Shown here: positions 14,256 to 54,230 of the stretch, piece after piece | Position numbering within the stretch: position 1 is the first letter of the stretch | How the letters are laid out: each line of letters begins with the position of its first letter | Source: Odiellus spinosus | Taxonomy: Eukaryota; Arthropoda; Arachnida; Opiliones; Phalangiidae | Length of the DNA stretch: 64,000 bases | Reading direction: 5' to 3' | NCBI GenBank assembly: GCA_963920705.1 | Contig: OY987225.1 | Span: 32,899,458 to 32,963,457 of the forward strand | Notes under the pieces: model-generated | Seen by the model: the letters and a program-made list of their open reading frames with translations, nothing else | The model's database searches: none | What the model was told of the DNA's origin: nothing | Translations under genes and position numbers: made by a program

Positions 14256-16968
14256 ATGAGTGAAACAAATAGGCTTAAAATAGGCTTGGTGGGCGCGGGA
14301 GCCGCGGGATTATGCGCCGCGCGGCATTTCAGTAAAAGCGCGGATTTTGAATGTGACGTAACTGTCTTAGAGCAACAAGGATTCGTAGGAGGAACCTGGA
14401 AACATACAAGTCAAGTCGGAACCGATGAAAATGGATATAGGATTCATTCTAGCATGTATGACAATCTTAGGTACGTCATTTTAATTCGTGTTTGTGAATA
14501 TTAAAATAAAATTATAACACTAATATACGCGATCTAGGACCAATCTTCCGAAACAGGTGATGGAATACCCCGATTTTCCATTTTCGGATGTCCAAGGAGA
14601 TAGTTACATTTCTCATAATGAAGTTCAGAAATATCTCGAAGATTACGCGACACATTTCGAATTAGAAAAACATATCAAGTTTTACAGAAAAGTAGTCAAA
14701 ATTCATCCTTTACCGTCTGAGAATCGTTTCGGAGAAATGTGGAAGGTAGATGTGACGAACTTAATAGATAAATGTCAAGAAAATTACGTTTTCGACGCGC
14801 TTATCTTAGCCTCTGGGTGAGTAAAAGTACGATATGAATCAGAATTCAATTTGGCGCCAAAATAATGCGGGAAAAAGAAGCGCCCCATCGAGTAATTTTG
14901 TACGCGCGCACCAGCTGGAACGGTAATAAGAATAGTTTCTTATTGGACGATTGTCCTGGAACCCCTTCACCAAGGAGGATCAGAGAAGGAGAGGAAATTT
15001 GGGGCTGCGTTGAGTTAGAGAGAGAAGAGCCAACCTCCCACTCGGGTGGAAAGGGGGGATAGGAAATTCTCGAGGTAAACTGTTGTCACGTGGTCGCTAG
15101 CTAGCGCGTCTCATAAAGGATTCGTTTTACCCACGCGACAACATTTTACCACGAAACGTCTCTACCCCCGTTCTCCCAGAGTGGGAGTTTAGGCCGACGC
15201 AGTAGGAACCGCGCCGTCCCCACATTTCCTCTCCTTCTCTGATCCTCCTTGCCTTCACTAATTCAAAGTTGAATTTAATACAAATATCAGACATTAATTG
15301 ACAGATTTCCTGTACCAGCAAATGATCCCCTCTCGAAAATGAAAAGTTACGAGACGTTTATAAAATGTATCGAACAATGTCTATGCTTATTTCCGTCCCT
15401 GGTGCGCGCGCTTTCTATATTAGACACTGCCAACAGGCTGTGCGTATTTATACGTAGTTCGAATATAGAGAATCGGCACATCATGTTATTTCGCTATTAA
15501 TATTAATACTGCCAAAGGTACATTGCTGCCGATTTCCTATAATACACGGAAAATGACTCGCGGTTAAGCCTACTTTTGTTTTCTCTTCTTTTTTTATAGT
15601 TCCTACACGTACCCACGAATTCCAAACATACCCGGAATGGATAAATTCGAGGGAAAAGTGATACACAGCCACGATTATCGAAATAACGAGAATTACAAAG
15701 ACACCAATGTTTTAGTTTTGGGCGCTGGTCCTTCGGGGGTCGATATAAGTTTGGAATTATCGGATGTGTGTCAAAAAGTCATTCTATGCCATTCAAACAT
15801 TCCCATCTTTGAGGAAAAAGATAAACCAGAAAAGTTGGAAGAAAGAACGCCTCTAATTAGTTTAAATGAAAATTCTGCCATTTTCTCCGATGGAACTGAA
15901 ATTAGAATCGACGTTTTGATGTTGTGCACGGGCTACGATCTTAAATTCAACGAACTACTTGACCCTGAAATTAAAATTGACATAAAAGATCGGAGGGTCA
16001 GCCCCCTCTATAAACACTACATAAGCATTAACCACTCCAATTTGGCCATATTTGGATTGACCTTCAGGTAAATGTTTCATATATAAATCATTAGTGAAGA
16101 ACAAGTAATTTTCTATCGATTAATTATCGTTTAAATTGGAATAATCCTCTAGTAAACAAAAATTTCAAATAAATATTAAGCTGGAAATAAATATTTAACT
16201 TATTCGAAAAATAGGCTTAGCAAGGATCCATGGAGAGTCTTTGACTAACGACTAAAAGCCATATGATGTCAGATCTAGATGTGGATCTAGTTCATATGGT
16301 TCTGTTAGCAGTGATTGTTCGCTTTCGCGCGGTCTTTTTCGTAAAAGTACTTAATCCAGAAAGACGTACCATTCGTTAATTACGGTCCAGAAATAAACTA
16401 CGTCATATATAGGAAAAAATGACGTATATTTTTGACATTTTCATTTTAAAGTTTCTTAAAAACGCGTCAATCCAAAAAATGGTGACAGGATCACTTTAAT
16501 TATAAATGAGATTAACTTCGTCTAGACAATAAGATATTAAAAGCATTAGTTTTGAGTTATATAGCTTTAATTCGATATATTACTTAAGCCTAAATCAGCT
16601 AAGCCTAATTTTATATTATTCTCCTTTACAGAGTAATACCATTTCCACTTTACCACTTACAAGCTTTGGCCCTAACTAAATTCTGGAGTGGTAAAGTCGC
16701 TTTGCCATCGAAGGAGGATATGTTAGCCGACGAAGAGAAGGAATTTGAAAAACGAATGAAATTGGGGATGCCAGTCCGATACGCCCATATTTTGAAAGGA
16801 GATTTTCAATTCGATTACTTCAATGCCTTAGCCGAAGTTTCTATGATACCCAAATTATCTTCAATTTATAAGAAATTGTACGATTATTCGCATTTTTTGC
16901 GTAAAACGAATCCAGTTGGATATAAATTTGTTAAAATAAAGATGGAAGATGTTTTAAAATTTGAATAA
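14256..16968 (+). CDS. Flavin-containing monooxygenase (FMO), 432 aa, 4 exons
   Basis: Exons 14256-14470, 14538-14816, 15600-16067 and 16632-16968 join in frame to 432 codons plus TAA. The enzyme uses FAD, NADPH and O2 to oxygenate N, S or Se in xenobiotics. Short FMOs lacking the C-terminal membrane anchor include insect senecionine N-oxygenases. Seen here: FAD-binding GAGAAG (13-18); E38-type acidic end of the first beta-alpha-beta unit (VLEQQGFVGGTW); the FMO signature FxGxxxHxxxY as F181-G183-H187-Y191; NADPH-binding GAGPSG (206-211); the CTGYD block (274-278); and a C-terminal FGLTF/PFPLYHLQALA region. There is no signal peptide and no obvious C-terminal transmembrane helix, so it is probably soluble. 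Intron 2 contains transposon M1-a; intron 3 contains R1 and F1-like fragments. AATAAA occurs at 16964 and 16970. The substrate cannot be read from sequence. Confidence 0.92.
14971..15251 (+). mobile_element. M1 copy a: TIR element with 7-bp TSD, in FMO intron 2
   Basis: This 281-bp element starts CAAGGAGGATCAGAGAAGG and ends with the complement of the same sequence. About 36 bp of terminal repeat are nearly identical. Beyond that the two halves remain recognisably inverted but diverged across most of the element, including a CTCCCACTC/GAGTGGGAG pair and GTTGTCACGTG/CGCGACAAC near the centre. The flanking duplication is CCTTCAC at 14964-14970 and 15252-15258. It has no coding capacity. Confidence 0.92.
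16140..16460. repeat. F1-like and R1 fragments in FMO intron 3
   Basis: 16160-16230 resembles the subterminal F1 sequence (AAATATTAAGCTGGAAATAA, then AGGCTTAGCAAGGATCCATG). 16316-16420 is a forward R1 fragment (TCGCGCGGTCTTTTTCGTAA, then CAGAAATAAACTACGTCAT). Between them is a short near-palindrome around CCATATGA...TCATATGG (16258-16299). Confidence 0.5.
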
Positions 16969-17985
16969 AAATAAATTATAATATTATTATAGCCAAATGT
17001 ATTTCCATTTTAGATTAAATTAATATTTCTAATCAAATTCCGATGATTTTTTTTCGAATCAAATTTATTTATGAAGTAAATTTAGGTCTATTTAATCGAA
17101 TTCTGTTTGAATTTTCCAGTTTGGACCCCTTTTTGACCAAATTAGAAGATTTTTTCCATATTGGGTAAGCCCTATGTATGGTAGGGTCGCCTAATTCTGA
17201 ACGCTTCTAATTCTGAACACTTTCATTTAAAATGTATCACTTAACTTTGGTTGGGTCTATTTAAAGATGGAAGAGCTCATTCTGTAGATGAAGAATGGGG
17301 CTATTCGCGGAACGCAGCTTCAACACTCTAGGAAAAGACCCGGAGAAGGTACGACCCTAATTAACCAACCGCGATAATTAGCCTAATTAATTAGACCGTT
17401 TTGTTTCCCTTTAGGGTCCGGGAAATAAGCTTTTACGAGCTTCGGAAAAATCCCGGGCTTAAGCGCTCGATTTCGTCGTCAAGTTTGAGCTTCCCGCTCC
17501 AAAATAAACTTCTCAAACACAGAATGTGACCACAAACTCTTCGTGAAAACATAATTTCAAAATATGTCTATGAATTTCTAATTCTTTAGGGCGCGCTAAA
17601 ATATACGAAAAACCCCCTATCCTACTATGAAGTTTAATTAAAGAATATTCAACTTTAACCTTTAATTTTAAGATTCCCAGAAAGTGATTTTGAATCAAGA
17701 CGATAAGGGATATGACTCAAATTACGTTCGATGGTTCCTCGTAAAAAATTAATCCAAGGTTATTTGGAAATAGGGGAGAAAGATCGAAAAATTAAATTCG
17801 GCGAAAGGGAAATTGGAAACCATTCGTTTTAATTTAATATCTTATCTGAGGCCCAGATACATTCGGCTCTTGCGAAATGTCAACTAGACGAAAGAAGCCA
17901 AATTACTCGAAACTCGTTCGTTTTAACCCCAAAAACGGTTCGGCGTATACGGAGTGAAAGAATACGCGCGAATAAAATTTGAAAT
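16969..17985. other. Intergenic region, FMO to carboxylesterase
   Basis: 1017 bp without a recognised exon. It contains the FMO 3' flank and the esterase upstream region. No TATA box was found at a convincing distance, and the sequence near 17330-17480 is less AT-rich than its surroundings. Confidence 0.45.
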
Positions 17986-20919
17986 ATGAAGGTTTTGATT
18001 TTATTTTTGGCCCTGGGTTCGTGGGCGGGTCAGACCTGGTCAGCTTCGGTAGCCAGCGAATTCGATGACAGCCTATTCGTGGAATTAAAGGATTTCGACC
18101 CAGTTATGGAATTCTCCGAGTTGGAAGATTCTTTGGGTGATATCGTCAGCACAACATCCGGCGTTTTTGCAGCCACTAAAACCACCAGTAAAACCAATAA
18201 AACCGTTAAAGTATTTTACGGTATTCCTTACGCCAAACCACCCATTGGAGAACTCAGGTTCAGGGTAATTTACTATATTCAATTGCAACCTTAAAAGGGA
18301 TCTAAATTCTCATAGAACAAAATATTTATAATATGTAGTAGTAGTATGTTGTCAACAGAAGCCGATGAAACCCTCCTTTGAAGTCTATTACTCCCGGGTC
18401 TTGTCTACCCCTCTCTGTATGGGTTAGTTTCAAAAAGCGCGATTCGTACGCCTCCTAACGGTAGATATTTTCGGAGCGGGAGTTCGTCGAGCGAATATCT
18501 CTAGCAGCCTCGGAGTTCGTCTAAAAAACGTCGTCGTTTGTGGAGAGAGAGAATTTCCAATTTTCCGTAGACAGGGGGTATGAAGTAGGACCCCTCCGAT
18601 CTGCTAAAATTGGGAATTTTAAACATACAGAGAGGAGCGCTATATGGAACATTAGAGTAGTAGACTTCAAATAAGGGTTTCATCGGCTTCTGTTGTCAAT
18701 GATATTGAAATGACCCTGTTTTGTAGCCACCTCAACCGGCTGAGAGCAAACCTGGTTTTAAAGTAGCTGACAAAAAGGGCAGCGCTTGCTTCCAACATGG
18801 TCCCGAAAAAGCGACGAAACTTCTTCGTAAATTGGGTTACAGCGTTCCTCCTCCTTACAGCGAAGACTGTCTAACCCTAAACATCTGGGTACCCGATGGA
18901 GTTCAGAGCGGACAAGATCTTCCGGTCATGGTGTTCATTCACGGTGGAGGTCAGATCTTCAACACAAAACTTTCGAAATCCGAATGCATCTTATATATCC
19001 TCTATTTAACCGGATATTAGGCTTAGTTTAGTACTATTTAAGCCTAATTTCCGGTTAATTAAACAATTTCAGGATTCTATTTGGGTTCTTCTACGGATTA
19101 CTACAGCGACGGAGCGACTTTAGTCTCGGAAGAAAATGTCATCGTGGTATCTATGAATTACCGGTTAGGAGTTTTAGGATTCCTAAGCCTCGGTTTGAGA
19201 GAAGAAGCTCCCGGAAACGCGGGACTGATGGATCAACAAATGGCCTTGAAATGGGTCAAGAATAACATCGGAAAATTCGGCGGAGACCCGAAGAAAGTCA
19301 CCTTATTCGGGGTCAGTTCCGGTTCCATTTGCGTCGGTTTTCATATCTTATCCGATGGAAGCGAGGGACTCTTTCAGCGCGCCATCATGATGAGCGGGGT
19401 TCCTCATAGTCCTAACTCTCTCCAAGATCCGGAAATCGTTAAGAAGAAGTCGATAGAAGCGGCCAGAAACTTAAACTATAAAGGTTCGGATGACCTCTAC
19501 GACGTCTTACGATTCTTGAGGTCAAAATCGGCCGAAGAAGTGAATCAAGCGGGTGACGTCTGCGGCGAAGAACGATTCGCGATTGGTCCGACCTACGACG
19601 GCGTCTTTCTTAAGCCAGAATTAAGCGAATCCCCGAGTAAAATGACCCTTATGATAGGGACCACGTCCGACGAAGGAACTTTTCAATACATCTCAAACTA
19701 TCCCTATCTTTACAGCAGGTACGTCTAATGATTCGGACCACTTAAAAGCCTAACCCTAATTCGAGAAATTGACCTCTGAACCGTCCGTTTCGCTTTTATT
19801 TCGCAGGTACGAAAACAGCGAGTTGGATTGGAACGACTTCGAATACATCTTCAAGAAATTAGACCCCGAATTTGATGACCATACTCTAAGCCTAATTAAA
19901 TCCAGCTACGTTGATCATAGCAAACCCATCGATGATCCTCTCATGATCAGAGACGCGGCCATCAAAGCGATCGGCGATTACCTAGTCAACTGCGATACCC
20001 AGGATTTTGCGGATGCCTTCTCCGAAGCGCAAGTCACGGTATTCAAATTTAAATGGAATAGAACCACTCAGTTTTCTCGCTACGGGATTATCTCCAAAAT
20101 AACGGAGATCATTGATGAGTTTCAATGTTTTTAAACAGTTCAAATTTTACATATTGTATATTTGCAGGTTTACAGGTACATTTTTGACGGTAGGGCCAAC
20201 GTAACGGAAACCCACGTTCCGAAATGGGCAGGGGCTTTACACGGATGCGATGGACTGTTATTATTCGGAGATTTTCTAGATTCCAACGATTTGCCCTCGA
20301 CGTATTTAGATTTTGTACGCGATATGATGAAGAAATTCGCCAATTTCGCTCGTACGGGGTAAGACATATTCTCAACTTCCGTGGTGACAGGAAGTTGGCG
20401 AATCAAAACGTAGGGACACAAGGGGTTGAAATGCGTATTTGCAGATGTAAATATCCTTGCCTATTTGAAGAGACCTCCTTTTTTCGATTTTTTGGCCACT
20501 TTTAAATTTTTGCGTTTTTGGCGGGAAACCGCGGATGAATGCACGATATTCGACGGGTATTTATTAGTGACGTATTGTTAGACGTAGTGCTAAGAATAGC
20601 AAGCCACGCCTTTCACATTGGGCCAGAGTTTTATACCCCTTTTAAGATCGCGTTATTCTACTAATCTAAATGTTTTCCGTTATCTAGAAGTCCTAATTTG
20701 AGCCGGGAAGAAAGCAGAATTAAAGCGGACCCTAAGCCTTGGCCTTTATATTTCAAACAACATCGATATTCTATGATAATCCGCGAAACGGGGGACGAAG
20801 AAGTTCAACATCCTGGAGTGAACAAGTGCGCCTTATGGAAAGGATTAATCAAGGGCGAATATAATTTAGAGAATGGAGATGGTAAAGCCGAATCCGATAC
20901 GTGTACGAATACAGATTAA
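17986..20919 (+). CDS. Secreted type B carboxylesterase, 600 aa, 6 exons
   Basis: Exons 17986-18264, 18727-18949, 19073-19718, 19807-20038, 20168-20358 and 20688-20919 join in frame to 600 codons plus TAA. It is an alpha/beta-hydrolase of the carboxylesterase/cholinesterase family, hydrolysing carboxylic esters. Seen here: a hydrophobic signal peptide (about 1-20, ending TWSA); YGIPYAKPPIGELRF; SEDCLTLNIW with the conserved cysteine; oxyanion hole H165-GGG-F169; nucleophile elbow G247-V-S249-S-G251; acid E368 in TSDEGTF; and His485 in ALHGCDGLLLFG. The full triad S249-E368-H485 is therefore present, so it should be catalytically active rather than a neuroligin/glutactin-like protein. A polar C-terminus without a membrane anchor suggests secretion. 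An N-terminal acidic extension (about 24-55) precedes the domain. The exon 4 donor could be 6 bp earlier (20032). Intron 1 contains transposon M2-A. Substrate class (detoxification, hormone or odorant esterase) is not decidable here. Confidence 0.92.
18356..18692 (+). mobile_element. M2 copy A: TIR element with 7-bp TSD, in esterase intron 1
   Basis: This 337-bp element starts CAGAAGCCGATGAAACCCTC and ends with the inverted copy. The outer 35 or so bases of the arms match well, and the inner arms are only partly similar. The flanking duplication is TTGTCAA at 18349-18355 and 18693-18699. Without it the 462-bp intron would be about 118 bp, like its neighbours. Short open frames inside it are by-products of the repeat. 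Confidence 0.94.
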
Positions 20920-20984
20920 TCCATCTCTTTATCAAAACTCAAGCCCACGTCGTTTAATCGATCAATTCAGATTCGTAATCCTCC

Positions 20985-24470: not shown

Positions 24471-24477
24471 ACTAAGC

Positions 24478-24769
24478 CAAGAAGGATCAGACAAGGAGAG
24501 GAAAAGTGGGGACGGCGCGGTTCCTGCTGCGTCGGCCTAAACTCCCACACTGGGAGAAAGGGGGTAGAGACGTTTCGTGGTAAATTGTTGTCACGTGGGT
24601 AAAACGGATCCTTTATCAGCTTCGTAGTAGTCGACGACGCTAGTGACTACGTGACAACAGTTTACCTCGAGAATTTCCAATCCCCCCTTTCCACCCGAGT
24701 GGGAGGTTGGCTCTTCTCTCTCTAACTCAACGCAGCCCCACTTTTCCTCTCCTTATCTGATCCTTCTTG
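24478..24769 (-). mobile_element. M1 copy b: TIR element with 7-bp TSD
   Basis: This 292-bp element starts CAAGAAGGATCAG and ends CTGATCCTTCTTG. Its interior is the reverse complement of M1-a at 14971-15251. The flanking duplication is ACTAAGC at 24471-24477 and 24770-24776. Long diverged arms are as in copy a. It is non-coding. Confidence 0.92.
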
Positions 24770-27410
24770 ACTAAGCTAAAGGTTTTGTATATTGTAATTG
24801 TTTCAACCAATGAGGAAGCGTCTTGTATAAAAGGCAATCAACCAATAGGAATTAACACCGGAAATATATTGGTATACAACTTATTTAGGAAATCAGAAGT
24901 GTGGCCTATATATTTTTTCGGGGGCCCTAGTTCTTCTAGCTTTTAGAGATCTCTGATTCTACTCAATTCTCAATTGGATAAGGGAATGGTTATTAACCAA
25001 AGTGCGTGTCAAATATCAAGATGAAATATTACCGTGGTTTTAAGCTAAGTATCAGCGTAAAGTAGTTCCTTCGATTTCTACATCGAAATAAGATGCTTTC
25101 CGGTTTCGACTGTAGTACAATCTCAAAGTGAAAATAACTTCTTGGCGCGTAATGTCTGGTTTTTGGTTTTTAGTCTTTCCCGTGGTTGTTATTTTTACTT
25201 TCAGGTCCATTTTTTCTGTAAACAGTGTCGAAAATAACACTACCAATAAACATAGTGACTTGGTTGAGTAATTGTTTGTAGGTTTCTATTACTTTAGGAT
25301 GATATTTTTGGTTTATTTTCCAGATACAGGATAATAAATAAACACACCATTGTAGACCAAAATGAAGGCTTCAAAATGAGACCAACCTCGTCAAAATCGG
25401 ACAACAAGTAACAAAATTATTAAAACTTAAAGTTCACTAAAAAATCTGACGCTGATAACTAAATAAGATATAGGTTAAATAACGTGTAGACATAAACGAG
25501 AGCTTCAAAATGAGACTAACTAGATCAAAATCGGACAAAAAATAATAGAGTTATTTATTTTTAAAGTTGTCTAAAGTATTGGACGACGATTTGGTTGCAA
25601 ATCGATATTGAAATGTTGTCCTATATGGTAGCTTCAGCCTGGACATGAAAGTGTAGGAGAGAAAACACTTTTACAGGCGCTCATAGGAAATACCAGGGAA
25701 GATTAGATCCTAAATGTGGGCTTCTAATTACACGCGAAAATGCAAAACCAGGAACATTTGTACAGAATTCCAACTTTGATTAGATTTAAATTAATTTAAT
25801 TATATATTTCTAACGTTTTTGCAAAGTTTTAAATATTCTTTTTCTAAAATTTTCCAAATTAGAGCCCAATTGTGAAATTCCCAAACGCTAAAGGCGTAAA
25901 ACTGTTCAAACCAAAAATAAATTAAAATTTAGTTCCTTGCCGATAAAAGATAGAAAACACGTCTGTTAGACCAGAAAAATAGGCCTAATTTTAAATTAGA
26001 GTCCTTTCATTGTGAATTAAAGGCGGGGGGTCGGTGGAAACTCGAAGATTTGAGATTAAAAGACAGGGGAAGGAAACCCGAGTACAGTAAGGAGGGGTTA
26101 AGGTTAGGGTTAGGGTTAGCCGCGACAGAAAAGAAGCGAAAGCGAGAGCGAACGGAGAGAAGTATAGAGAAAGAGGACGGACGGAATTAAAGGGTAGAGG
26201 GGATTCAGGGGAAGCGCCTTAATTAAGCGTATCGTTAATTAGTGCCACCTGGAGGAACAAATTGGCCCTTGATGGAAACTGAAATGGAAATAAACGAGAG
26301 AAAAAGGAAAGGCTAAATATATATATAATATAATATACAACTCGCGCGGAGTCTCGCGCCAAAATTCTCTCTCATTTCCCGCCAAAATTTCCCCCTAATT
26401 TATATACGTGTGGCGCGTGTTCTATAATTCACCGCGCGCGCGCGTGCGATGTAATATTAGTTTTCAGTTTTCAGCGCGTGCCGCGAGTTTAAAGGTTAAT
26501 CTAAATGATGACGTCATCCAAAGCGAACGGAAAAATAATTAAATTTTATAGGATTAAAATTAATATTTAATCATATTAATATATTTATGACATTTAAATT
26601 ATAATATAATATATATTAAAAGGGTTAATAGCGATAAAGTTTCAAAATTACAGTCTGTTCACTTTTAGCCCGAAAAATATTTAAATTTTAAATTATTATT
26701 TTGGTAATTTTATCAGAAACAAATCGTGAATTTAAATTAAGGGGTTATAATTACCGATTTAAAGAATCTACTCAGTGTGTACATATACTCCTGGTCATAT
26801 TTTTTAGCGAACTTTCCGAAAATATTACAAATTAGATTTAGAATTCGTAAAAAAAAAATAGATGTCACCTTCACTTCAAATTAAGGTGAAATAAATTTAT
26901 AATTTTAATAAACTCTAGGCTTAACCCTCGGTTAAACGCTCGAGTTATATTAGAGTAAAGGTGGGAAAATTTAATTTAAATAAATGATAAATTAAGAGAC
27001 CAGGAAAAAATGAAGTCATTTTTTTTCGTCTCTCATCTCACTTTTTGAAATAGTGGCTTTTCTAGAGAGCCGCTGATATAGACTTCTTTAAAGTACTCGA
27101 AGCTATTAGGGCAAACTGTTACCAACGAGCTCGCTCTTATATATAGGTCTAAACTAGCCCGAGGAATTACTTAAGGGTTAGGCAAGGAGCGAAAGATTTT
27201 GGCGCGAAAATAAGCTAGGGCATATTATATTATACATATAGAAAGGAAAGACGGAACGCATTGGCGCGAAAAATTAAAAGCCGACAAAATCCGCTCGAGA
27301 CTTCATTTTCCCCGAGGAAATTCTCGCGCCATACTATGCCTATATAACTATATATACTTAGTTTCGGGCTTAGTATGGGATATTAATTCTATTGTATATT
27401 CGAAATTTTC
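24770..27410. other. Gene-free sequence with CpG-rich patch and telomere-like trimer
   Basis: No exon is recognised. GGTTAGGGTTAGGGTTAG lies at about 26101-26119. From 26030 to 26520 the sequence is CpG-rich (GCGCGCGCGTGCG near 26432) with GCGCCAAAAT/TTGGCGCGAAAA motifs continuing to 27320. This could mark a promoter or enhancer of an unseen gene, but no coding exon adjoins it. Confidence 0.4.
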
Positions 27411-27414
27411 TTAA

Positions 27415-27795
27415 AGGGAGAATGAAACCTAAACACAATTGATTTTTTTTATATATTTCTTATCGTTTAAATAGGCTTAATTAAACAGTAAAATAATTTA
27501 CAAACAAATATTAAACTAGAAATAAATTTAAAACTTACAACCCAAAATAGGCTTAGCTGGATTCATGGAGATCAACTGAACTCACAGTATAAGGACAAGC
27601 GGACAATGCCATTGGTCGATGGCTCTTATATGGGGAATGCAGGATCTCCATGATCAATGTCAATGGTTCTTATACGGGGAGTTCAGCTAATCTCCATGAT
27701 CTATTTTGATGGTAAGTTTTAAATTTATTTATAGTTTAAAATTTGTTAATTTGTTTGGATTAGGCCTATTTTAACGATAGGAAATACTAATTCTA
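27415..27795 (+). mobile_element. F1 copy c: TTAA-target foldback element, right end lost
   Basis: After TTAA (27411-27414) the element begins AGGGAGAATGAAACC and follows F1 through AAATATTAAACTAGAAATAA and AGGCTTAGCTGGATTCATGG. It then runs into the inverted half (TTAGGCCTATTTTAACGATA). The expected terminal ATTCTCCCT is missing, so the right end is truncated or diverged. The centre contains inverted copies around ATGGAGATC/GATCTCCATG. Confidence 0.7.
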
Positions 27796-28829
27796 TATTT
27801 ATATATGAATTCCCCATATTGGTTTTAATAATAGAATGAAATTTTTTAAATTAATCCATATAGAGATCAGGGTTTGGACAAGATAATCCACAAATATCAG
27901 TTAATCTGTTAATCAGTTAATCATAAAAAAATATTAGGGATTACATTGGATTTAACATAGACTTCCCGTGGATAATTTCAAATTATGAATAAAGATAATA
28001 TAATCAAAATCCATAAAATGGTGACAGTATCACTTGAATGAAATTTGATCCTTACTAAGATTGAAAATAAATATACGTAGGGTCATAGCACCACAAAAAT
28101 AAAATAAAGAGTACAAAATAAGAAGAATACGCTATATGTTTGTTACAATCTTAAAAGTGATCGAAATTCCCATTAGAAAAGCGTGTATTTTATGGATATT
28201 TAGGTCTATTTCAAGGTTGTTGTAAGAGTTGGGTCAATTTTTTATCCCACACATGTTTTACGTAAGTTTTTCCTCTTTATCAAGAAAAGGCCAACGTAAA
28301 CTCTATTTACGAGTGTTCAGCTTCGTTGCCAATTGATGGAAAACGTATTTGCGAACTTCTAGTATAGATTCCCTGAATAATAAAACAAAGCCAAATTTGG
28401 TTGGTTTTGGGACCCACCTTCTATAGAATATTTTCCCACAAATAAAAATATTTGACTAGATTTTGTCAGTCTATGAATATCATGTCATTTTCTCCGCGAA
28501 TAACTTTATTTCAAACATAAATTAATATATAAATATAATATATATATTAATATATGAATTCCGGCTTCATCATTAAAAAAAAAAAAAAAAAACAGTAGCT
28601 TAAGGCGAAAAAATAAACTATAAAAGTTTACGCTAGATTTAACAAGAATGGCAAAATTTTAAAACCATATATTTTAAAACTTACAAGTAAATTAAATCAT
28701 ATTATCGCGTGAAATATTCTCTCCTATACCTTCGGTAATTAAATCTAGTGATTTATTGAGGTGTAAAGAGAGAGTAACACGATCAAGTTTGAATTTATTT
28801 CGGCAATAGCTTTCGGCAATAGCTTTCGG
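27796..28829. other. Gene-free AT-rich sequence
   Basis: No exon recognised. It contains an AT dinucleotide-rich stretch (28515-28560) and an A18 tract (28575-28592). Just before M3, the sequence AATAGCTTTCGGC is present twice in tandem (28805-28830). Confidence 0.4.
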
Positions 28830-29247
28830 CAGAGGTATATAATAACCCCCTTCGGGGGGAAGTATGAAAGGTAGGCAAAATCAACGAACAACGAGTGCCC
28901 GGCGTAAATCGTGGCGGATCGACACACCGCTTTACTCCCAAAAAATAGTTACACCATTTTGAACCTCACCAAATTTTCCCTACGCACACTTCCGGAACTC
29001 GCGAGCTGAAGTCAACCTTCGACTCCATTTTAACAGACAGCCTGACTCCCGAGACAGGAAGTTCTAAACACAAATCGAGCCGTCTTGTTTATACAAAGAC
29101 CATTTACTAGAGTAGCGGTATTGAGAAGTCCAGCGCGAGCTAGTGGCCTAGATAGTCAGCAGCGGGGTCTTGTTGTTCGTGATTTTTAGCATTGGTAGTA
29201 TAGGGGCTTTCATACTTCCCCCCGAAGGGGGTTATTATATACCTCTG
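28830..29247. mobile_element. M3: TIR element with perfect 41-bp arms and 7-bp TSD
   Basis: This 418-bp element starts CAGAGGTATATAATAACCCC and ends with the exact inverted complement; the arms are identical over 41 bp. Each arm contains its own hairpin, CCCCC-TTCG-GGGGG. The flanking duplication is CTTTCGG at 28823-28829 and 29248-29254. The interior (28871-29206) is less AT-rich and non-coding (only about 60 codons open on the minus strand). Identical arms suggest a recent insertion. It shares no sequence with M1 or M2 but has the same CA...TG ends and TSD length. Confidence 0.93.
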
Positions 29248-29321
29248 CTTTCGGTAATATATTCTTCTCGCGTCACCTACACTTTAAAACTCAAAAATAG
29301 CGTACGAAACTAATCCCTTAA

Positions 29322-29622
29322 AGGGAGAATAAAAGGCCGAAACGAGCTATTTTTAATCGATTAAGAATGCTAAAATAATGAGAAAAACAATTGGCGACTA
29401 GATCAGACGGGAATATTAAAAAAAAAAAAAAAAAAAAAAAAATACGGCTCGTGCTCGCCTAGTTCGCCGAGCTAGGCAGTCAAGGCTTAGCATCCGCAAG
29501 TTTCGGAACTTTGGATTATAAAATAACGACATCTTTTTGGTGAGTTATACTATTGTTTTTCTCATTATTTTAGCATTCTTAATCGATTAAAAATAGGTTG
29601 TTTTTGGCGTTTCATTCTCCCT
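29322..29622. mobile_element. M4: TTAA-target TIR element with ~80-bp arms
   Basis: This 301-bp element is bounded by TTAA at 29318-29321 and 29623-29626. It begins AGGGAGAATAAAA and ends TTTCATTCTCCCT. The inverted arms extend about 80 bp and are nearly identical in their inner part (AATCGATTAAGAATGC, AATAATGAGAAAAACAAT). The centre has an A25 tract (29418-29442) and a CGCCTAGTTCGCCGAGCTAGG near-palindrome. TTAA targets are typical of piggyBac and Kolobok superfamilies. Terminal bases match F1. Confidence 0.88.
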
Positions 29623-29626
29623 TTAA

Positions 29627-30024: not shown

Positions 30025-30360
30025 TTCTGTAACTATTTCAAAATAATTTTCATACGAAAGGTAGTTGACTTGATTTGGATTAAGTACTTTTACGAAAAAC
30101 ACCGCGCGAAAGTGACCTAATAATTGGTGCCAGAACGAACAAGAATCAACTATAGGCTCTATACAATATTGAAATCACGTGACCATATGACGTAGAATTG
30201 CGGGGAATATTTATTTTAAAAATTTCGAAAATGGTGATTATTAAATATGCATTTTTACTGTTATGTTAATTTTATTCTATGACATATGTATATATATTTT
30301 GAATCGTTTTTTAACGATCTTTCCGACAATGTGACTCAATTTCCATTTAGAGTTCAGGAA
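30025..30360 (-). repeat. R1 copy, reverse
   Basis: A near-complete reverse copy of R1. It contains GGATTAAGTACTTTTACGAA, GAATCAACTATAGGCTCTAT, GAATCGTTTTTTAACGATCT and ends with the CTCAATTTCCATTT terminus. Interior and edges match the copy at 59837-60205 most closely. Confidence 0.8.
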
Positions 30361-30994
30361 AATCCATTACAGCACTTATAATTAATCCATAAAATAAAAA
30401 AAAGCTGATAAACACACTTTCGTTCCATTAAAGTATTATAGTTTTTAAAGCACTTTAAAATTATATTCATTTAAATTAAAATATAATTAAAAAGTAAACG
30501 TTTTTTGATAATTAATAAAATATACATCGTATATATAGGTGTTATCTCCGACCCGCGAAACTCTTAAGTTCTTCTTAAATCGTAAAAATTTATCCAATAA
30601 TAATTATAAGAGTCTGCTTGCTAAGAGCAAAAAGGCTTAATAATATATAATAATATATAGACAAAACCACGAGGGAGGGAAATTCGTCGGTTTCCATGGA
30701 AACCACACGTTTTCCAACTCGAGTTTCCTTTTACATCCACTTTCAAAATCAGAGCAATCTAAGCTAAGAATCACGCCCAGATTACCGAACGCGGGAAATA
30801 AGGTAACCCTAACCTGCAATTCCTACTGATAAATAGAGACAGAAATTAATCAAATATACGAGAAATAAGCAAGCTACTTCTAAAGGAAAACCTAGGATTT
30901 GAAAGACTCATTTTCAATCAAGATTTTCATGGCCAAGAATTAAGATTTTGCGTCAAATCAAAGCTTAAATCAAGTCTGAACGTTAACAGTGATA
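30361..30994. other. Gene-free sequence
   Basis: No exon recognised. A 60-codon open frame on the minus strand at 30637-30819 has no family motif. Confidence 0.35.
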
Positions 30995-31557
30995 AGCCGC
31001 GTTCATATTAGCAGAAGCCGATGAAACCCTCCTTTGAAGTCTACTACTCCAATGTTCCATATAGCGCTCCTCTCTGTATGGGTAAAATTCCCAATTTTAC
31101 GAGTTAGAAGGGGTCCTACTTCATCCCCCCTGTCTACGGAAAATTGGAAATTCTCTCTCTCCACAAACGACGACGTTTTTTGGACGAACTCCAAGGCTGC
31201 TAGAGATATTCGCTCGACGAGCTCCCGCTCCGAAAACATCTACCGTTAGGAGGCGTACGAATCGCGCCTTTTGAGAATAACGCATACAGAGAGGGGTAGA
31301 CAAGACCCGGGAGTAATAGACTTCAAAGGAGGGTTTCATCGGCTTCTGATATTAGGCATTGGAATCGATTTAAACAGAGTCGTGTTTCTCGAAACTGCTT
31401 CGGGAACCAGTTTCGTATAGATTCGGCTGGTTTCAACAACCGATAGATGAAGCTTCAATAAATCGATTTATAAAGATAATCCGTGAATACGTGAGGCTTA
31501 AAACGATGGCCATTTGAATATCGGTTTGATTTTAACGTTTCAAATCGATTAAGAAAT
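30995..31557 (+). repeat. R2 copy a, interrupted by M2-B
   Basis: The R2 start (AAGCCGCGTTCATATTAG) stops at 31011 and resumes at 31349 with ATATTAGGCATTGGAATCGA. It continues through GAAACTGCTTCGGGAACCAG to the R2 distal end TCGATTAAGAAAT. The interruption is exactly M2-B plus one copy of its 7-bp target. Only a single 162-bp unit is present here. Confidence 0.85.
31012..31348 (-). mobile_element. M2 copy B: TIR element with 7-bp TSD, nested in R2
   Basis: This 337-bp element has the orientation opposite to copies A and C (left arm continues CTACTCCAATGTTCC). The flanking duplication ATATTAG at 31005-31011 and 31349-31355 is R2 sequence, so the insertion post-dates R2. Confidence 0.94.
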
Positions 31558-35544: not shown

Positions 35545-35885
35545 CTCGAATTCCAAATAGAAATTGAGTAAAATTTTCGGAAAGATCGTTAAAAAACAAT
35601 TCGAAATATATATACATATGTCATAGAACAAAATTACCATAACAGTAAAAATACATATTTTATAATCGCCATTTTCGAAATTTTTAAAATAAATATTCCC
35701 CGCGATTACGTCATCACTATGGTCACGTGATTTCGCTATTGTATAGAGTCTACAGTTGATTCTCGCGCCAATTCTGGCACACGTGATAAAGTCGTTTTCC
35801 CGCGGTCGTTTTCGTAAAAGTACTTTAATACAGTCAACTATTTTTCTTTAATTACGTTCCAGAAATAAATTACGTCATACATATG
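35545..35885 (+). repeat. R1 copy, forward, near complete
   Basis: Runs from AATTCCAAATAGAAATTGAG through GATCGTTAAAAAACAATTC, ACGTCATCACTATGGTCACG and GTCGTTTTCGTAAAAGTACT to AATAAATTACGTCATACATA. It carries both ends seen in other copies and serves here as the reference R1 copy. Confidence 0.82.
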
Positions 35886-36772
35886 ATGCTGGGTTTATCC
35901 GAATATAAATATTATTGCAAGCTTTATCTATTAATAAATTACTCGTATTATTGGATAAGAAATTCAGATTTCTTAGAATTCGTGTAAAATAATTATAACC
36001 TAATTAAAAAAATAAATAAAACAACAAATTTTTATATTTTTGTCAAAAATGTTTTAAATTGTTCTTATCCGAATTATATAACTCGAATAATTTTCATTTT
36101 TAGGATTAAAACGGATTAAGATTATTATTGTTTTATTTAATCTTCGGATAAGTTAACTGGAATGATTAATAAGTCTATTTTTAAGAATTTTAACGGATAA
36201 TACAAAGTCAGAGCACTAATTCTAATTAAATAGAAAGCTATCTAATTTAAACGAGATTTTCCCTTTAAAGTCTATAATAATAATAATAGAATCATGCAAT
36301 TATTCGACTCCATTTATTGGGCGATTACGATGTTAAAGGTATATTCGATATTAAACTCTATAGAGGAATGTTAGTATTCCCTTAGTGGCTGGTAGGTTAT
36401 CCTATTTCCGGTTGTATAGATAAGTTAATACTAATGGCTTAAAACGAGAAAATGAGACTAAATAGAGCTTTAAAATTTGGTCAATCAAAGTTAGCTATAG
36501 CTAGAGTTGCCTTGGCTGCGAGCTTTAGCATCTGCAAATGATTTTACACACTCAAAACTTGTATATCCTAATTTCCCACAAGTTTCCTCTTAGAAATTTA
36601 AAGGTGATTGGATCAGGAATAGGTTTAACAAGGTATTTAATGTATCAAAAGCTAAAATACTAAAAGTTTAAACCAAAAAATATAACAAGAAAGAAAATAA
36701 ATTAAATATATTTCTTTACAAGAAAAATTATATTCTTAAATATATAATTATATTTTAAAATATATTTAGTGT
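35886..36772. other. Gene-free AT-rich sequence
   Basis: No exon, RNA gene or array recognised. Confidence 0.4.
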
Positions 36773-37109
36773 CAAAAGCCAATGAAACCCTCCTTTGAAG
36801 TCTATTACTCCCGGGTCTTGTCTACCCTTCTCTGTATGGGTTAGTTTCAAAAAGAGCGATTCGTACGCCTCCTAACGGTAGATATTTTCGGAGCGGGAGT
36901 TCGTCGAGAGAATATCTCTAGCAGCCTCGAAGTTCGTCTAAAAAACGTCGTCGTTTGTGGAGAGAGAGAATTTCCAATTTTGCGTAGACAGAGGGTATGA
37001 AGTAGGACCCCTCCGATCTCGTAAAATTGGGAATTTTACCCATACGGAGAGGAGCGCTATATGGAACATTAGAGTAATAGACTTCAAAGGAGGGTTTCAT
37101 CGGCTTCTG
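36773..37109 (+). mobile_element. M2 copy C: TIR element with 7-bp TSD
   Basis: This 337-bp element is very similar to copy A and in the same orientation. The left terminus has two changes (CAAAAGCCAATGAAACC) while the right end keeps the standard form. The flanking duplication is TTAGTGT at 36766-36772 and 37110-37116. Confidence 0.94.
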
Positions 37110-37116
37110 TTAGTGT

Positions 37117-38900: not shown

Positions 38901-39689
38901 GCATTGATGGAGTGGGGACGAGAGCGCGCGAGAATAAAAAAGTGAAAATTCAAAGAACGCGATAGCGTTTTATGTTATGGGCCGATGATCAACTGTAATG
39001 CAATTTCATACATAATATGGACCTTAATAATGGATAGAACAAGTAAAAACAGCTTGTAAAAGAGATTTTTAATAATAACACGTAATAATAACCCTTTCTT
39101 CGTGTCTTTTAAGGATAGAAATAGTAAAACTTTCTTTGGTCACGTTATAGTTTTAGTTCCTTGTTAATCTTTAAATACAGTTTCTTAATATCACTAAGAA
39201 TAATTTATGAAATGCTTAAAGTTTATTCTTAAAATCAAAGAAAGAAGAAATCTTGCCTGACAAAAAAAAAAAAAAAAAAAAAAAAAATGTCTCTTTCTCG
39301 AAACAGATTTCTTTTAACTTGTCTGATGTATAATACACGCTATCCTGATTAATATGGTCCGTAGGAAATTAGGAAGAATGACGGGATAGCGGGTGGGAGG
39401 GAGATAAGATGTAAAATAGAAAAACTGCCAGCTTATAGAGCTTTGCCGGAAGTTAATTTGCCGTGAAACCCCTCTTTCCCACACTCGCCCAACATATAGA
39501 ATTCAAAATAGCGACGTATTTAAAGGGACAGTGAAATAAATCGAATGTTTTTATTTATAATTGATAGGGCTGCAATCTAAATAGGTAAATAAAAATGGCG
39601 GGACTTTACCATCAAAATTCGAATCAAAATTATAAAGATACGAACCAAATAAGAACTAGTGGCGCCACCACGAGAAAACAAACAAAAAT
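38901..39689. other. Gene-free sequence with A26 tract
   Basis: No exon is recognised. A26 lies at 39262-39287. Confidence 0.4.
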
Positions 39690-39900
39690 ATCACGAGATT
39701 TTTCGCGCGCTTTCGTAAAAATGAATGTAATCGAGATTTTGGCGCGCGAGGTAAAATTCGCGCGCTTTCGTGTAATCGAGATTTTGGCGCGCACGCGGTG
39801 AAATTCGCGCGCTTTTATCGAAATATATAATTACAATTTTGGCGGGAAACAAATCGCGCGAAAATTCGCCATAAAAACAGGATAAAAACGCCAATTTCAA
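39690..39900. promoter_or_regulatory. Cluster of E2F-like GGCGCG / TTCGCGCG motifs
   Basis: Within about 200 bp, ATTTTGGCGCGC occurs at 39736 and 39780 and AATTCGCGCGCTTT at 39754 and 39803. Related TTTTTCGCGCGC (39700) and TTTTGGCGGGAAA (39838) also occur. These fit the E2F core TTTSSCGC on both strands. The two central units are an imperfect duplication of about 44-49 bp. Function is inferred only from the motif. Confidence 0.3.
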
Positions 39901-41070: not shown

Positions 41071-42120
41071 CATGCAGTAATTTTTATTTCTTATTGTTTA
41101 TTTCATTTATTACTTGTTATTGTTTATTTTTTAATAGTTGTTATTGTTTATTTAATTTATTTCTTGTTATTTCAATTATTTCTTATTGTTTATTTCAATT
41201 ATTTCTTATTGTTTATTTCAATTATTTCTTATTGTTTATTTCAATTATTTCTTATTGTTTATTTCAATTATTTCTTATTGTTTATTTCAATTATTTCTTA
41301 TTGTTTATTTCAATTATTTCTTATTGTTTATTTCAATTATTTCTTATTGTTTATTTCAATTATTTCTTATTGTTTATTTCAATTATTTCTTATTGTTTAT
41401 TTCAATTATTTCTTATTGTTTATTTCAATTATTTCTTATTGTTTATTTCAATTATTTCTTATTGTTTATTTCAATTATTTCTTATTGTTTATTTCAATTA
41501 TTTCTTATTGTTTATTTCAATTATTTCTTATTGTTTATTTCAATTATTTCTTATTGTTTATTTCAATTATTTATTATTGTTTATTTCAATTATTTCTTAT
41601 TGTTTATTTCAATTATTTATTATTGTTTATTTCAATTATTTCTTATTGTTTATTTCAATTATTTCTTATTGTTTATTTCAATTATTTCTTATTGTTTATT
41701 TCAATTATTTCTTATTGTTTATTTCAATTATTTATTATTGTTTATTTCAATTATTTCTTATTGTTTATTTCAATTATTTATTATTGTTTATTTCAATTAT
41801 TTCTTATTGTTTATTTCAATTATTTCTTATTGTTTATTTCAATTATTTCTTATTGTTTATTTCAATTATTTCTTATTGTTTATTTCAATTATTTCTTATT
41901 GTTTATTTCAATTATTTCTTATTGTTTATTTCAATTATTTCTTATTGTTTATTTCAATTATTTCTTATTGTTTATTTCAATTATTTATTATTGTTTATTT
42001 CAATTATTTATTATTGTTTATTTCAATTATTTATTATTGTTTATTTCAATTATTTATTATTGTTTATTTCAATTATTTCTAGTTATTGTTTATTTCAATT
42101 TATTTCTTATTATTGATTAT
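41071..42120 (+). repeat. 23-bp minisatellite, about 40 copies
   Basis: The unit is TTTATTTCAATTATTTCTTA plus TTG, about 40 copies between 41165 and 42085, with degenerate units at both edges. The common variant replaces CTTATTG with ATTATTG. The unit lacks stop codons and 23 is not a multiple of three, so all three forward frames stay open for about 300-360 codons. These are not genes. Confidence 0.96.
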
Positions 42121-45281: not shown

Positions 45282-45321
<40 letters not shown>

Positions 45322-46435: not shown

Positions 46436-46729
46436 TATTAAAGAAATAAAAAAAAGAAGAAGAAACGCTGAGGAATAAAAAAATGGTCCCTCGTTAACCG
46501 GAAGTACCATCAACGTTTAGAATCATTTCCTCTTTGACTTCCCAAAACGTTAAACCTACGCCAAGCCACCAAAAAACTCGGCAGTATTTGGAGAGAAATT
46601 GTGTGTGAGAGAAAGAAGGGTTCACGTACAAACTACCCTGAGAATGAATGCAATATATAAGGCGGCTGGTTAAAAACTAAAAAACAAGTTGGTTGACAAT
46701 CGAATAATCATGGTTTCACATTTTTCATG
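46436..46729. other. Gene-free sequence
   Basis: About 300 bp, nothing recognised. Confidence 0.35.
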
Positions 46730-47056
46730 AGCTCCAAATGGAAATTGAGTATCATTTTCGGAAAGATCGTTAAAAAACGATTCAAAATATATATACATAT
46801 GTCATAGAACAAAATTACCATAACAGTAAAAATACATATTTTATAATCACCATTTTCGAAATTTTAAAAAAAAAAAATTATCAGCAATACTACGTCATCC
46901 CTATGGTCACGTGATCTAGCTATTGTATAGAGCCTAGAATTAATTCTCGCGCATTCTGGAGCGAGTGATAAGTTTTTTCCGCGCGGTCTTTTTCGTAAAA
47001 GTACTTAATTCGTTTAAAAATTATCGTTAGTTCCATAAATAACTTACGTAATAAAA
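46730..47056 (+). repeat. R1 copy, forward, near complete
   Basis: Runs from AGCTCCAAATGGAAATTGAG through GATCGTTAAAAAACGATTC, the CGTCATCCCTATGGTCACGT block and GGTCTTTTTCGTAAAAGTAC to ATAACTTACGTAATA. Confidence 0.82.
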
Positions 47057-47877: not shown

Positions 47878-47916
<39 letters not shown>

Positions 47917-49665: not shown

Positions 49666-50561
49666 TTCGTTTACTTCTTTAATAATTTACTCTTGTTTGC
49701 AATCATCATATATTATTCTACACTACATCCCTATTTGAACCAAAAGCAACTAGTTAAGCTTTCGGTGTACTACTTTAATCCCAATACAATTTAACATTAT
49801 GTATCAATCCACTACAGTATAAATTACGTTGTAACATTCCATCAAAACCATATTATATCACTCTCCGAAAATTTTCTCCACTTGAGATCCATTTTATATT
49901 TTAAATAAAGCATCCCTTCGCTTAACAAATTCATCTCGTAGTAACATGACGAATTAACATCGAGTACGAAGGTACGCTACTCTCATCTCTAAACTTTCTA
50001 TATTTAAAAACTGAAAGGTGCCTAACTTCGTACGTGGTAACGATTCAAGATGAAATTTCGAATTTCTCTCTCGCATCTTTAGTTGGTAATATAAGATCAG
50101 GACCATTGTTTGAACGAAAAGGGACCAAATAACGGTAAATGGTCTGGGAAGGGGAAAACATTGGGGTCCTTTTCGGTGGGCGGGTAACTTTACTAATTAA
50201 GGAATTCGCAATTTCCTAATACTAATAATAAGTTGCGAGTTATATTACTACTTCTATTTTCAAAGCGAGTTGGCGCGAAGGGAAAACCTGAGGCGGAGTG
50301 TTACGCAATATTAAACCTGATAGAAAAGAAAATAGTGTCAACTACCCCTTGAACTTAAGAATACTTAAGAATTATAAAGGAATACAAGGGATACGGTAAA
50401 AGGGACGTCTTTCCAAAACCTTTTGTATTATTATAAATTTAAACCTAGCTGAGGCTTTAATTCTGTATGTCAGTATACTTTAGTTACATTCTAAGAAGGC
50501 TATATAGAAAAATACATTTTTCAACGCGAATTTTGGACACTTTCAACTTTCGCCGCATTCA
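49666..50561. other. Gene-free sequence
   Basis: No exon, RNA gene or array recognised. Confidence 0.4.
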
Positions 50562-50933
50562 AGGGAGAATGAAACCTAATATCAACTGATTTTTTTATCG
50601 ATTCCTTATCATTTAAATAGGCCTAATACACCAGTAAAAAATATTACAAATAAATATTAAACTAGAAATAAATTTAAAACTTACCATCAAAATAGGCTTA
50701 GCTAGATTCATGGAAATCACCTGAATTGAGAATTTAATGGAGATCTCGCCTTAACGCCAGGCCTTGGCTCATTGGTCGATGACAATTCAACGCGAAGAAA
50801 TGAATCCAGCTAAGCCTATTATTCAGGTAAGATTTTTATTTCTAGTTTAATATTTGTTTGTAAATTATTTTACTGGTGGATTAGGGTTATTTAAATGATA
50901 AGAAATCGATAAAAAAACACTTGCATTCTCCCT
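50562..50933 (+). mobile_element. F1 copy a: foldback element with AGGGAGAATG termini
   Basis: This 372-bp element starts AGGGAGAATGAAACC and ends GCATTCTCCCT. The right flank is TTAA (50934-50937) and the left flank is TTCA, one base off a TTAA duplication. The two halves pair almost along their full length (about 180 bp per arm), each with ATTAAACTAGAAATAAA and AATAGGCTTAGCT(A/G)GATTCAT. It is non-coding. Confidence 0.85.
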
Positions 50934-50937
50934 TTAA

Positions 50938-51405: not shown

Positions 51406-52027
51406 GCCGCGTTCATACTAGGCCTTGGAATCGATTTAAATCGTTTCAAAACTTTTCGCTAGAGTCGTGTGAACGAGAAACCGTCTTTTCTCGAATAGAT
51501 TTCATTCGATTTCTCGAAACTGCTTCGGGAACCAGTTTCATACCGATTCGGTTTCAACAACCCTTAAGCCGCGTTCATACTAGGCCTTGGAATCGATTTA
51601 AATCGTTACAAAATGTTTCGCTGGAGTCATGTAAACGGAAAACCGTCTTTTTTCGAATCGATTTGATTGAATTTCTCGAAACTGCTTCGGGAACCAGTTT
51701 CGTACCGATTCGGTTTCAACAACCCTTAAGCCGCGTTCATACTAGGCCTTGGAATCGATTTAAATCGTTATAAAATGTTTCGCTGGAGTCATGTAAACGG
51801 AAAACCGTCTTTTTTCGAATTGATTTGATTGGATTTCTCGAAACTGCTTCGGGAACCAGTTTCGTACCGATTCGGTTTCAACAACCGATAGATGAAGCTA
51901 CAATAAATCGATTTATAAAGATAACGCGTGAACGTGTGACGCTCAAAACGATTCCTGGCGATTTGAATATCAGTTTGCTTTCACTGTTTCAAAATCGATT
52001 AAGAAATGCAAGTGTGACCGTAGTTTT
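51406..52027 (+). repeat. R2 copy b with three tandem 162-bp units
   Basis: GCCGCGTTCATACTAGGCCT recurs at 51406, 51568 and 51730 (exact 162-bp spacing). Each unit runs through CGAAACTGCTTCGGGAACCA to GGTTTCAACAACCCTTAA. The last unit continues into the R2 distal part (ATAGATGAAGCTACAATAAA, ATCGATTAAGAAATGCAAGT). Units 2 and 3 are closer to each other than to unit 1. Confidence 0.88.
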
Positions 52028-52461
52028 AAGAGTGTCTTAAAATAACTCGCTAAGCCTAAATCAATTCCAAAGAAATTTTAAGAATGGAAAATTCAACAAT
52101 GGAAATCGATTTAAAATCACTTGTAGTTAGATTGCATTCTCCCTTTAATGAAATTTTTGAAACTAAAATATTTTCGCCGTATATTATGTAATTATTATAA
52201 TTTAAAGAGATAAAATTCCCCTAAGGTTTTGGTTGGTGTAAATATAATATATTTCAAGCGTGGAACGTTAAGTCGATTGTCTCAAAGTCAAAGAGATATT
52301 AAAATCAATTTACATATATTAATACAGTTACATTCTTGGAAAGACAGAAATTAATAGAAAAGAACCAGTATTTTGATAGAAATTTTGTTCATTTTTATAT
52401 TTGGCAATTTTTCAGAATAATTATTTAAAATATATTTAAAATTATATAAATTGATTTATTT
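52028..52461. other. Gene-free sequence with a solo F1-type end
   Basis: GCATTCTCCCTTTAA at 52135-52149 is the right terminus and TTAA of an F1/M4-type element with no partner nearby. The rest is AT-rich and unremarkable. Confidence 0.4.
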
Positions 52462-53160
52462 GATAAACTAAGATTTTGGGATTTCAATATTAATTTCCTA
52501 TAGAGATTTTGGGACTTCAATATTAATTTCCTATAGAGATTTTGGGATTTCAATATTAATTTCATATAGAGATTTTGGGATTTCAATATTATTTTCATAT
52601 AGAGATTTTGGGATTTCAATATTAATTTCCTATAAAGATTTTGGGATTTCAATATTTATTTCCTATAGAGATTTTGGGATTTCAATATTAATTTCCTGAT
52701 AGAGATTTTGGGATTTCAATATTAATTTCCTATAGAGATTTTTGGGTTTCAATATTAATTTCCTATAGAGATTTTGGGATTTCAATATTAATTTCCTGAT
52801 AGAGATTTTGGGATTTCAATATTAATTTCCTATAGAGATTTTTGGGTTTCAATATTAATTTCCTATAGAGATTTTGAGATTTCAATATTAATTTCCTAAA
52901 GAGATTTTGGGATTTCAATATTAATTTCCTATAGAGATTTTGAGATTTCAATATTAATTTCCTATAGAGATTTTGAGATTTCAATATTAATTTCCTATAG
53001 AGATTTTGAGATTTCAATATTAATTTCCTATAAAGATTTTGGGATTTCAAAATTTAATTCCTATAGAGATTTTGCATCTTCAAAGTTATTTTTCCTGTTC
53101 CGAGGAATTTTAGGATTTCAATATTAATTTCCTATAAAGATTTTGAAATATTTTGAAAAC
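52462..53160 (-). repeat. 33-bp minisatellite, about 21 copies
   Basis: Unit AGAGATTTTGGGATTTCAAT plus ATTAATTTCCTAT (33 bp), with a few 34-bp units that gain a base (CCTGATAGAG). Because 33 is a multiple of three, the minus strand reads as an 11-residue repeat (KSQNLYRKLIL) over two open frames (52425-52652, 52763-53050). The frame breaks wherever the 34-bp units occur, so this is not a coding repeat. Confidence 0.94.
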
Positions 53161-53595
53161 TCTGTACGAGATTAACGAGAGTGTTTGACCCCTCGGGTTA
53201 ACGTGGTATGGGGACTAAAAATTAAATTAAAAAAATATACACATTCGGGGGTTTAATCCTCCCTGTCCCCCAACTCCCATTACTTCGGGGACTCCCCCAG
53301 GGTTTTTTTTTTTTTTTTTTTTTTCACAGAAACATTGTATATTAGCAATTCAAATTGTTCAGTGGCGACGTAGGCGGCAGGCGGAGATAAAAGGGCGTGG
53401 CTTAGAGTGAAATAAGGTTAAAAAAATGTTACCAGAGGGAAATTTCTCGAATCGAGCTTTCTTTTTATCCGCTTTTATTCATGATGCTCTCTTGTCTTTT
53501 GGAACACGTAGTCCGATTTAAAAGAACGATGGACGACTACGGGATTAAATACCACCCACCTCCCCATCACTCCACCAATAGATTTCCTTCCTTAA
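53161..53595. other. Gene-free sequence with T22 tract
   Basis: T22 at 53303-53324. No exon recognised. Confidence 0.35.
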
Positions 53596-53639
53596 AGGGA
53601 GAATGAAACCAAATGATCTTTTTAACGATTCCTTATCGT

Positions 53640-53975
53640 CAGAAGCCGATGAAACCCTCCTTTGAAGTCTACTACTCCAATGTTCCATATAGCGCTCCTC
53701 TCTGTATGAGTAAAATTCCCAATTTTACGAGTTAGAAGGGGTCCTACTTCATCCCCCCTGTCTACGGAAAATTGGAAATTCTCTCTCTCCTCAAACGACG
53801 ACGTTTTTGGACGAACTCCAAGGCTGCTAGAGATATTCGCTCGACGAACTCCCGCTCCGAAAACATCTACCGTTAGGAGGCGTACGAATCGCTCTTTTTG
53901 AAACTAACCCATACAGAGAGGGGTAGACAAGACCAGGGAGTAATAGACTTCAAAGGAGGGTTTCATCGGCTTCTG
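53640..53975 (-). mobile_element. M2 copy D: TIR element with 7-bp TSD, nested in F1
   Basis: This 336-bp element has the same orientation as copy B. The flanking duplication TTATCGT at 53633-53639 and 53976-53982 is F1 sequence. Confidence 0.94.
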
Positions 53976-54230
53976 TTATCGTTTAAATAGACTTAATCCA
54001 ACAGTTAAAAAAATTACAATCAAATATTAAACTAGAAATAAATTTAAAAATCAAAATAGGCTTAGCTGGATTCATGGAGATCCTGAATTTCTTCAGCGAC
54101 CAATCGAATGTCATTGGAAATCTCACGGAGATCTCGCCTTAAAGACGGTCCTTTCACTGGTCGGTGACCCATCAATGCGAAGAAATTCAGGATATCTCTG
54201 AATCTAGCCTATTTGCCTGGTAAGTTTTAA

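Follow-up and report, generated by a model that had tools for sequence, protein, structure and literature searches.

The P-element carries terminal inverted repeats (TIRs) with CA...TG ends, and another element of the P superfamily, 1360, is also called Hoppel. Drosophila resequencing has shown that the stagger is nearly fixed per family: 1360 gave a 7-bp target site duplication (TSD) in 274 of 279 insertions, the P-element an 8-bp TSD in 1207 of 1226 insertions, and hobo, a hAT element, an 8-bp TSD in 1196 of 1198 insertions (PMC3276498). Galileo, also of the P superfamily, has mostly 7-bp TSDs, with three 8-bp copies reported in D. willistoni (PMC4168063), and its TIRs are foldback-like and up to hundreds of bp long (e.g., 575/610), with 10/10 in one copy (PMC2775673). 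The zebrafish P-type element Pdre2 has the ends CATACCTGTCAAC...GTTGACAGGTATG, a 13-bp TIR, 12-bp subterminal repeats and an 8-bp TSD (PMC10983969), and the TSDs and TIRs reported for hAT elements measure 8 bp and 10-25 bp, respectively (PMC3942097). Here we analyzed a 64,000-nt stretch of the Odiellus spinosus genome (assembly GCA_963920705.1, contig OY987225.1, positions 32,899,458 to 32,963,457; hereafter the window, with positions counted from its first base), which carries seven insertions that start with CA, end with TG and are flanked by an exact 7-bp direct repeat (7/7 elements). These insertions represent three families of short non-autonomous DNA transposons of the miniature inverted-repeat transposable element (MITE) type, M1 (two copies), M2 (four copies) and M3 (a single copy).

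M1a occupies 14971-15251 on the forward strand (281 bp; 14964-15258 with its TSDs, CCTTCAC on both sides), and M1b lies in the opposite orientation at 24478-24769 (292 bp; 24471-24776 with the TSDs, ACTAAGC). M2a and M2c are on the forward strand, at 18356-18692 (337 bp; 18349-18699 with the TSDs, TTGTCAA) and at 36773-37109 (337 bp; 36766-37116, TTAGTGT), respectively. M2b, at 31012-31348 on the reverse strand (337 bp; 31005-31355, ATATTAG), is nested in a 162-bp repeat unit, and M2d, at 53640-53975 on the reverse strand (336 bp; 53633-53982, TTATCGT), in a dispersed repeat. M3 is found at 28830-29247 on the forward strand (418 bp; 28823-29254, CTTTCGG). All seven elements, with their termini and 7-mers, are as a previous sequence-only reading of the window had claimed.

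In each family a TIR of 34-41 bp (34 bp in M1a and M1b, 38 bp in M2a and M2c, 39 bp in M2b and M2d, and 41 bp, perfectly matched, in M3) is followed by a subterminal inverted repeat. The latter was assessed in M1a, M2a-d and M3 as an inverted repeat beyond base 42, against 200 shuffled versions of each element. No shuffle was as good for M1a or M3, and 8, 0, 6 and 2 were as good for M2a to M2d, so that the evidence is weak for M2a and M2c taken singly. The subterminal repeat of M2 starts at base 55-57 and ends at base 66-78 (58-60 to 69-83 from the other end), that of M3 spans bases 48-72 (62-85 from the other end), and M1 is foldback-like over about 120 bp on each side, to about base 121-123. 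The M2 copies are 93 to 97% identical among themselves, and M1a and M1b are 89% identical.

The 7-bp flanks also stood out in a scan that was blind to family and sought inverted termini of 14 bp, with up to 2 mismatches allowed, at a distance of 80-3000 bp. Of the 5353 pairs returned, 989 were flanked by a direct repeat of at least 2 bp. Exactly 7-bp flanks were observed in nine pairs, namely the seven M elements and two others that are AT-rich and have a TIR of 11 bp. Flanking repeats of 5, 6, 8 and 10-12 bp were also obtained; among these other pairs, those with long TIRs were offsets of the M elements, a shifted palindrome at 29362-29581, or dispersed repeats with copies in opposed orientation, several of which adjoin TATATA runs. 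When spacings equal to the seven element lengths were applied across the window, an exact 7-bp repeat was present at 815 of 444,822 position pairs, and against this background the seven flanks together are not due to chance. The seven insertions are independent, since their TSDs and flanks are all different.

For two of the insertions, the uninserted form of the target could be found in the window. M2b has eight paralogous empty sites, three on the forward strand at 51406, 51565 and 51727 (within 51406-51764) and five on the reverse strand at 57693-57731, 57856-57894, 58018-58056, 58181-58219 and 59304-59342; each carries the 7-bp site once, with a gap-free junction, and differs from the TSD by one base, or by two in one copy. 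M2d has five such relatives, at 27407-27580 (+), 50558-50727, 50800-50937 (-), 16110-16236 and 11015-11106 (-), again with the site present once and the junction free of gaps; their sites are identical to the TSD or carry one change, and small insertions or deletions occur elsewhere in the flanks. Because the empty copies carry the site only once, the 7-bp repeats around M2b and M2d are true target duplications, and the stagger proposed by the sequence-only reading is borne out. No empty sites for M1a, M1b, M2a, M2c or M3 were found within the window; a candidate for M2c at 36768-36736 was rejected, since this inverted match is AT-rich and has a gap where the TSD lies. The further statement that none of the repeats extends to 8 bp stood in part. 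The empty sites of M2b and M2d are compatible with 7 bp only, but in M2a and M3 (2/7) the base to the left of the TSD is a G, the same as the last base of the element, and the raw repeat can be read as 8 bp if the last base of the TIR is given up, which is expected by chance in one or two of seven elements.

The repeat that hosts M2d is an inverted-repeat element with the ends AGGGAGAATG...CATTCTCCCT, which adjoin TTAA in some copies, and is by inspection only of the TTAA type; it is present at 50558-50937, with relatives at 27407, 16110, 11015 and about 53592-54394, the last of which carries M2d. The 162/163-bp repeat forms tandem arrays at 51406-51886 and 57409-58376, in mutually opposite orientation, and related sequence near 31349-31557 is split by M2b. 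A 13-bp tandem repeat (TTTCGGCAATAGC, 2.6 copies) at 28798-28831 continues across the left TSD of M3 into its first CA, and the units of the repeat contain the TSD and CA wholly or for the most part; this could be due to chance, to slippage or to something akin to the footprints of past excisions.

The sequence-only reading had held that the three families share no other sequence, and at the sensitivity used here they do not. When one copy per family was compared at both ends with shuffled controls, all 12 terminal comparisons between families fell within the shuffle range (149 to 499 of 500 shuffles as good), as did the three whole-element comparisons (24, 152 and 49 of 200 as good); beyond CA, the termini of the families do not resemble one another. 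In addition, the exact terminus patterns of M1, M2 and M3 had no match in viral contigs (0 for each pattern), and the six terminal strings did not occur in the literature searched. Six stretches of prokaryote contigs gave one match each to the M2 pattern, without a paired TIR, and these were taken as chance.

The target sites of the three families were then considered as 14 symmetrised half-sites. Only pyrimidines are found at position 2 of the TSD and only purines at position 6 (14/14; 0/20,000 random sets), and a T three bases before or an A three bases after the TSD is present in 11/14 (13/20,000), both columns having been picked after seeing the data. With strict T2/A6 the count is 8/14 (297/5000 random). 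Pooling of the seven sites was suggestive in two measures, the best column being equalled in 5 of 2000 random sets and the total in 20 of 2000, but not in a third, as 220 of 2000 sets contained at least one full two-letter column. A matrix fitted on M2 did not significantly predict the M1 and M3 sites (2326/20,000 with 3-base flanks, 1407/20,000 with 5-base flanks), nor did a matrix fitted on M1 and M3 predict the M2 sites (1735/20,000 and 1085/20,000, respectively). Since the columns were chosen post hoc, a two-letter column is frequent in random sets and the hold-out tests were not significant, a target preference common to M1, M2 and M3 is only hinted at.

These comparisons bear on how many enzymes are at work. 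It is nearly an even call, in our view, that two or three transposases with the same 7-bp stagger move M1, M2 and M3, which would be compatible with a P as well as a hAT origin: neither the ends nor the whole elements are similar between families, and the matrix from one group of sites does not predict the other, but the pooled sites hint at a palindromic preference, with the reservation already made for the two-letter column. That one transposase with a fixed 7-bp stagger moves all three families, as the sequence-only reading had suggested, is unproven, because the termini are unalike beyond CA and the hold-out motif tests were not significant. A specific form of this proposal, in which a single 7-bp-stagger transposase with a target preference unlike that of the Drosophila P group (a pyrimidine at 2, a purine at 6 and an A three bases outside) recognises three sets of ends with nothing but CA...TG in common, by their subterminal structure and not by any terminal sequence that they share, appears quite doubtful.

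As to the kind of enzyme, the sequence-only reading had treated a 7-bp duplication as uncommon, and this view has to be revised: 7 bp is the modal TSD of 1360 (PMC3276498) and of Galileo (PMC4168063). The 7-bp stagger, the CA...TG ends and the subterminal repeats each have a precedent within the P superfamily; a transposase of the P type, already named in that reading, is a good candidate. 1360 resembles the M elements in its nearly fixed 7-bp TSD and differs in its target motif, GTTNAAC (PMC3276498); the P-group motif was not seen at the M sites. Galileo is alike in its mostly 7-bp TSDs, in having copies without an intact transposase and, with M1, in being foldback-like, but its TIRs can be hundreds of bp long and its consensus TSD, GTANTAC, was not seen at the M sites (PMC4168063, PMC2775673). 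Pdre2 shares the CA...TG ends and subterminal inverted repeats, and differs in its 13-bp TIR and 8-bp TSD from the 34-41 bp and 7 bp of the M elements (PMC10983969). The likeness in the CA...TG ends is drawn from Pdre2 and the P-element, and not from the ends of 1360 or Galileo.

On these analogies, we lean somewhat towards a P-type, 1360/Galileo-like transposase as the source of mobility of the M elements. In this model, a cut-and-paste transposase of the DDE/D type, produced from another place in the genome, would bind the TIRs and the subterminal repeats, excise the elements at their CA/TG ends and insert them into the target with a stagger of 7 bp; repair of the gaps would then produce the 7-bp duplications. 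This transposase would belong to the P superfamily and be like 1360 and Galileo in its stagger, or there may be a set of such enzymes.

Several observations weigh against this proposal. CA ends occur in hAT elements too. The termini of M1-M3 were not matched to any named family, a statement made without comparison to Repbase or Dfam. The motif of Drosophila P and 1360 (ANAGT...ACTNT) is absent from the M sites (17/56 matches, against a random mean of 16.4), and so is the Galileo motif GTANTAC (22/70, against 21.1); because of this absence the M elements are likened to 1360/Galileo-type P elements and are not filed as members. The P-element and Pdre2 themselves give 8 bp (PMC3276498, PMC10983969), and 7-bp TSDs are, so far as is known, not exclusive to the P superfamily: an unclassified 936-bp inverted-repeat element of a root-knot nematode is also described with them (PMC3169594). 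Furthermore, no transposase or THAP domain was detected with Pfam in the open reading frames (ORFs) of the window that were scanned, where shorter ORFs, split exons and masked arrays lay outside the scan and a decayed transposase could escape. The set comprised 247 complexity-filtered, stop-free ORFs of at least 52 aa outside the larger tandem arrays, scanned as 10 hand-picked ORFs plus 140 plus 86; the other 11 are located in the 162-bp array at 57409-58376 (eight), inside M2 copies (two) and at 39659-39814 (one). As no transposase-like domain was seen in the ORFs scanned, M1, M2 and M3 are regarded as MITE-type elements that are probably moved in trans, and the idea of non-autonomous TIR elements with a 7-bp stagger is supported.

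A rather unlikely source is a hAT lineage with a 7-bp instead of an 8-bp stagger, of which the M elements would be non-autonomous members. Both groups are TIR elements, CA-type ends are familiar among hAT elements and their MITEs, and the ends of M3 (CAGAGG) and M2 (CAGAAG) resemble those of Tol2 and hobo. The position-2 pyrimidines and position-6 purines of all 14 half-sites are also reminiscent of an earlier hobo motif, NTNNNNAN (PMC3276498). The stagger of hobo, however, is 8 bp in almost every insertion reported in the same source, and the TSDs and TIRs described for hAT elements (PMC3942097) differ from the 7 bp and 34-41 bp seen here. That the M elements belong to an undescribed superfamily with 7-bp duplications and CA...TG ends is very improbable; no transposase is known for them and the P-type target motifs are absent, but their stagger, ends and subterminal repeats each occur in described P-superfamily elements, although not all three in one of those compared. 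The Dada transposons, another candidate of the sequence-only reading, have TSDs of 6-7 bp that would fit. They are nevertheless a vanishingly improbable source, because Dada-U6 and Dada-U1 are described without TIRs, against TIRs of 34-41 bp in the M elements, and because Dada elements target U1, U6 or tRNA genes (PMC3706591), whereas in the window Rfam gave no match at the gathering score and ARAGORN detected no tRNA, searches that a decayed RNA gene could escape. TSD length, TIRs or targets were also the grounds for setting Mutator-like and TTAA elements aside, the Mutator and TTAA lengths being those given by the sequence-only reading.

The window is AT-rich and encodes host genes with the Pfam domains DOR, C19orf12, cyclin, FMO-like, FAD/NAD-binding families and carboxylesterase, all other Pfam matches being weak (E of 0.0015 or more). 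M1a lies in an intron of the FMO-like gene, between the coding blocks 14524-14817 and 15568-16068. M2a plus one copy of its TSD (344 bp) occupies most of a 462-bp intron of the esterase gene (18265-18726), which begins with GT at 18265-18266 and ends with AG at 18725-18726, its removal joining the codons to GELRFRPPQPAE.

Other repeats were also observed. At 29340-29600, about 200 bp are enclosed by an inverted repeat (CTATTTTTAATCGATTAAGAATGC...) whose length, judged by eye, is about 42 bp; this is perhaps a TA-type element. A dispersed repeat of about 320 bp is present at 30042-30362, 56249-56571 and 59879-60202 and, on the reverse strand, at 35521-35846 and 46721-47009; the listed copies are 81-83% identical to the copy at 56249, and visual inspection of five copies revealed no clear TIR or TSD. 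About 45 tandem copies of a 23-bp unit, at 41084-42118, are open in three frames and give rise to spurious long ORFs.

Taken as a whole, the set is real but fairly ordinary, and at present it provides a useful description of three MITE families. If the transposase is indeed P-type, non-autonomous families of another animal would share the fixed 7-bp stagger known from the 1360/Galileo branch in Drosophila, and the well-bounded M elements would be clean substrates with which to study how a stagger of 7 or 8 bp is determined.

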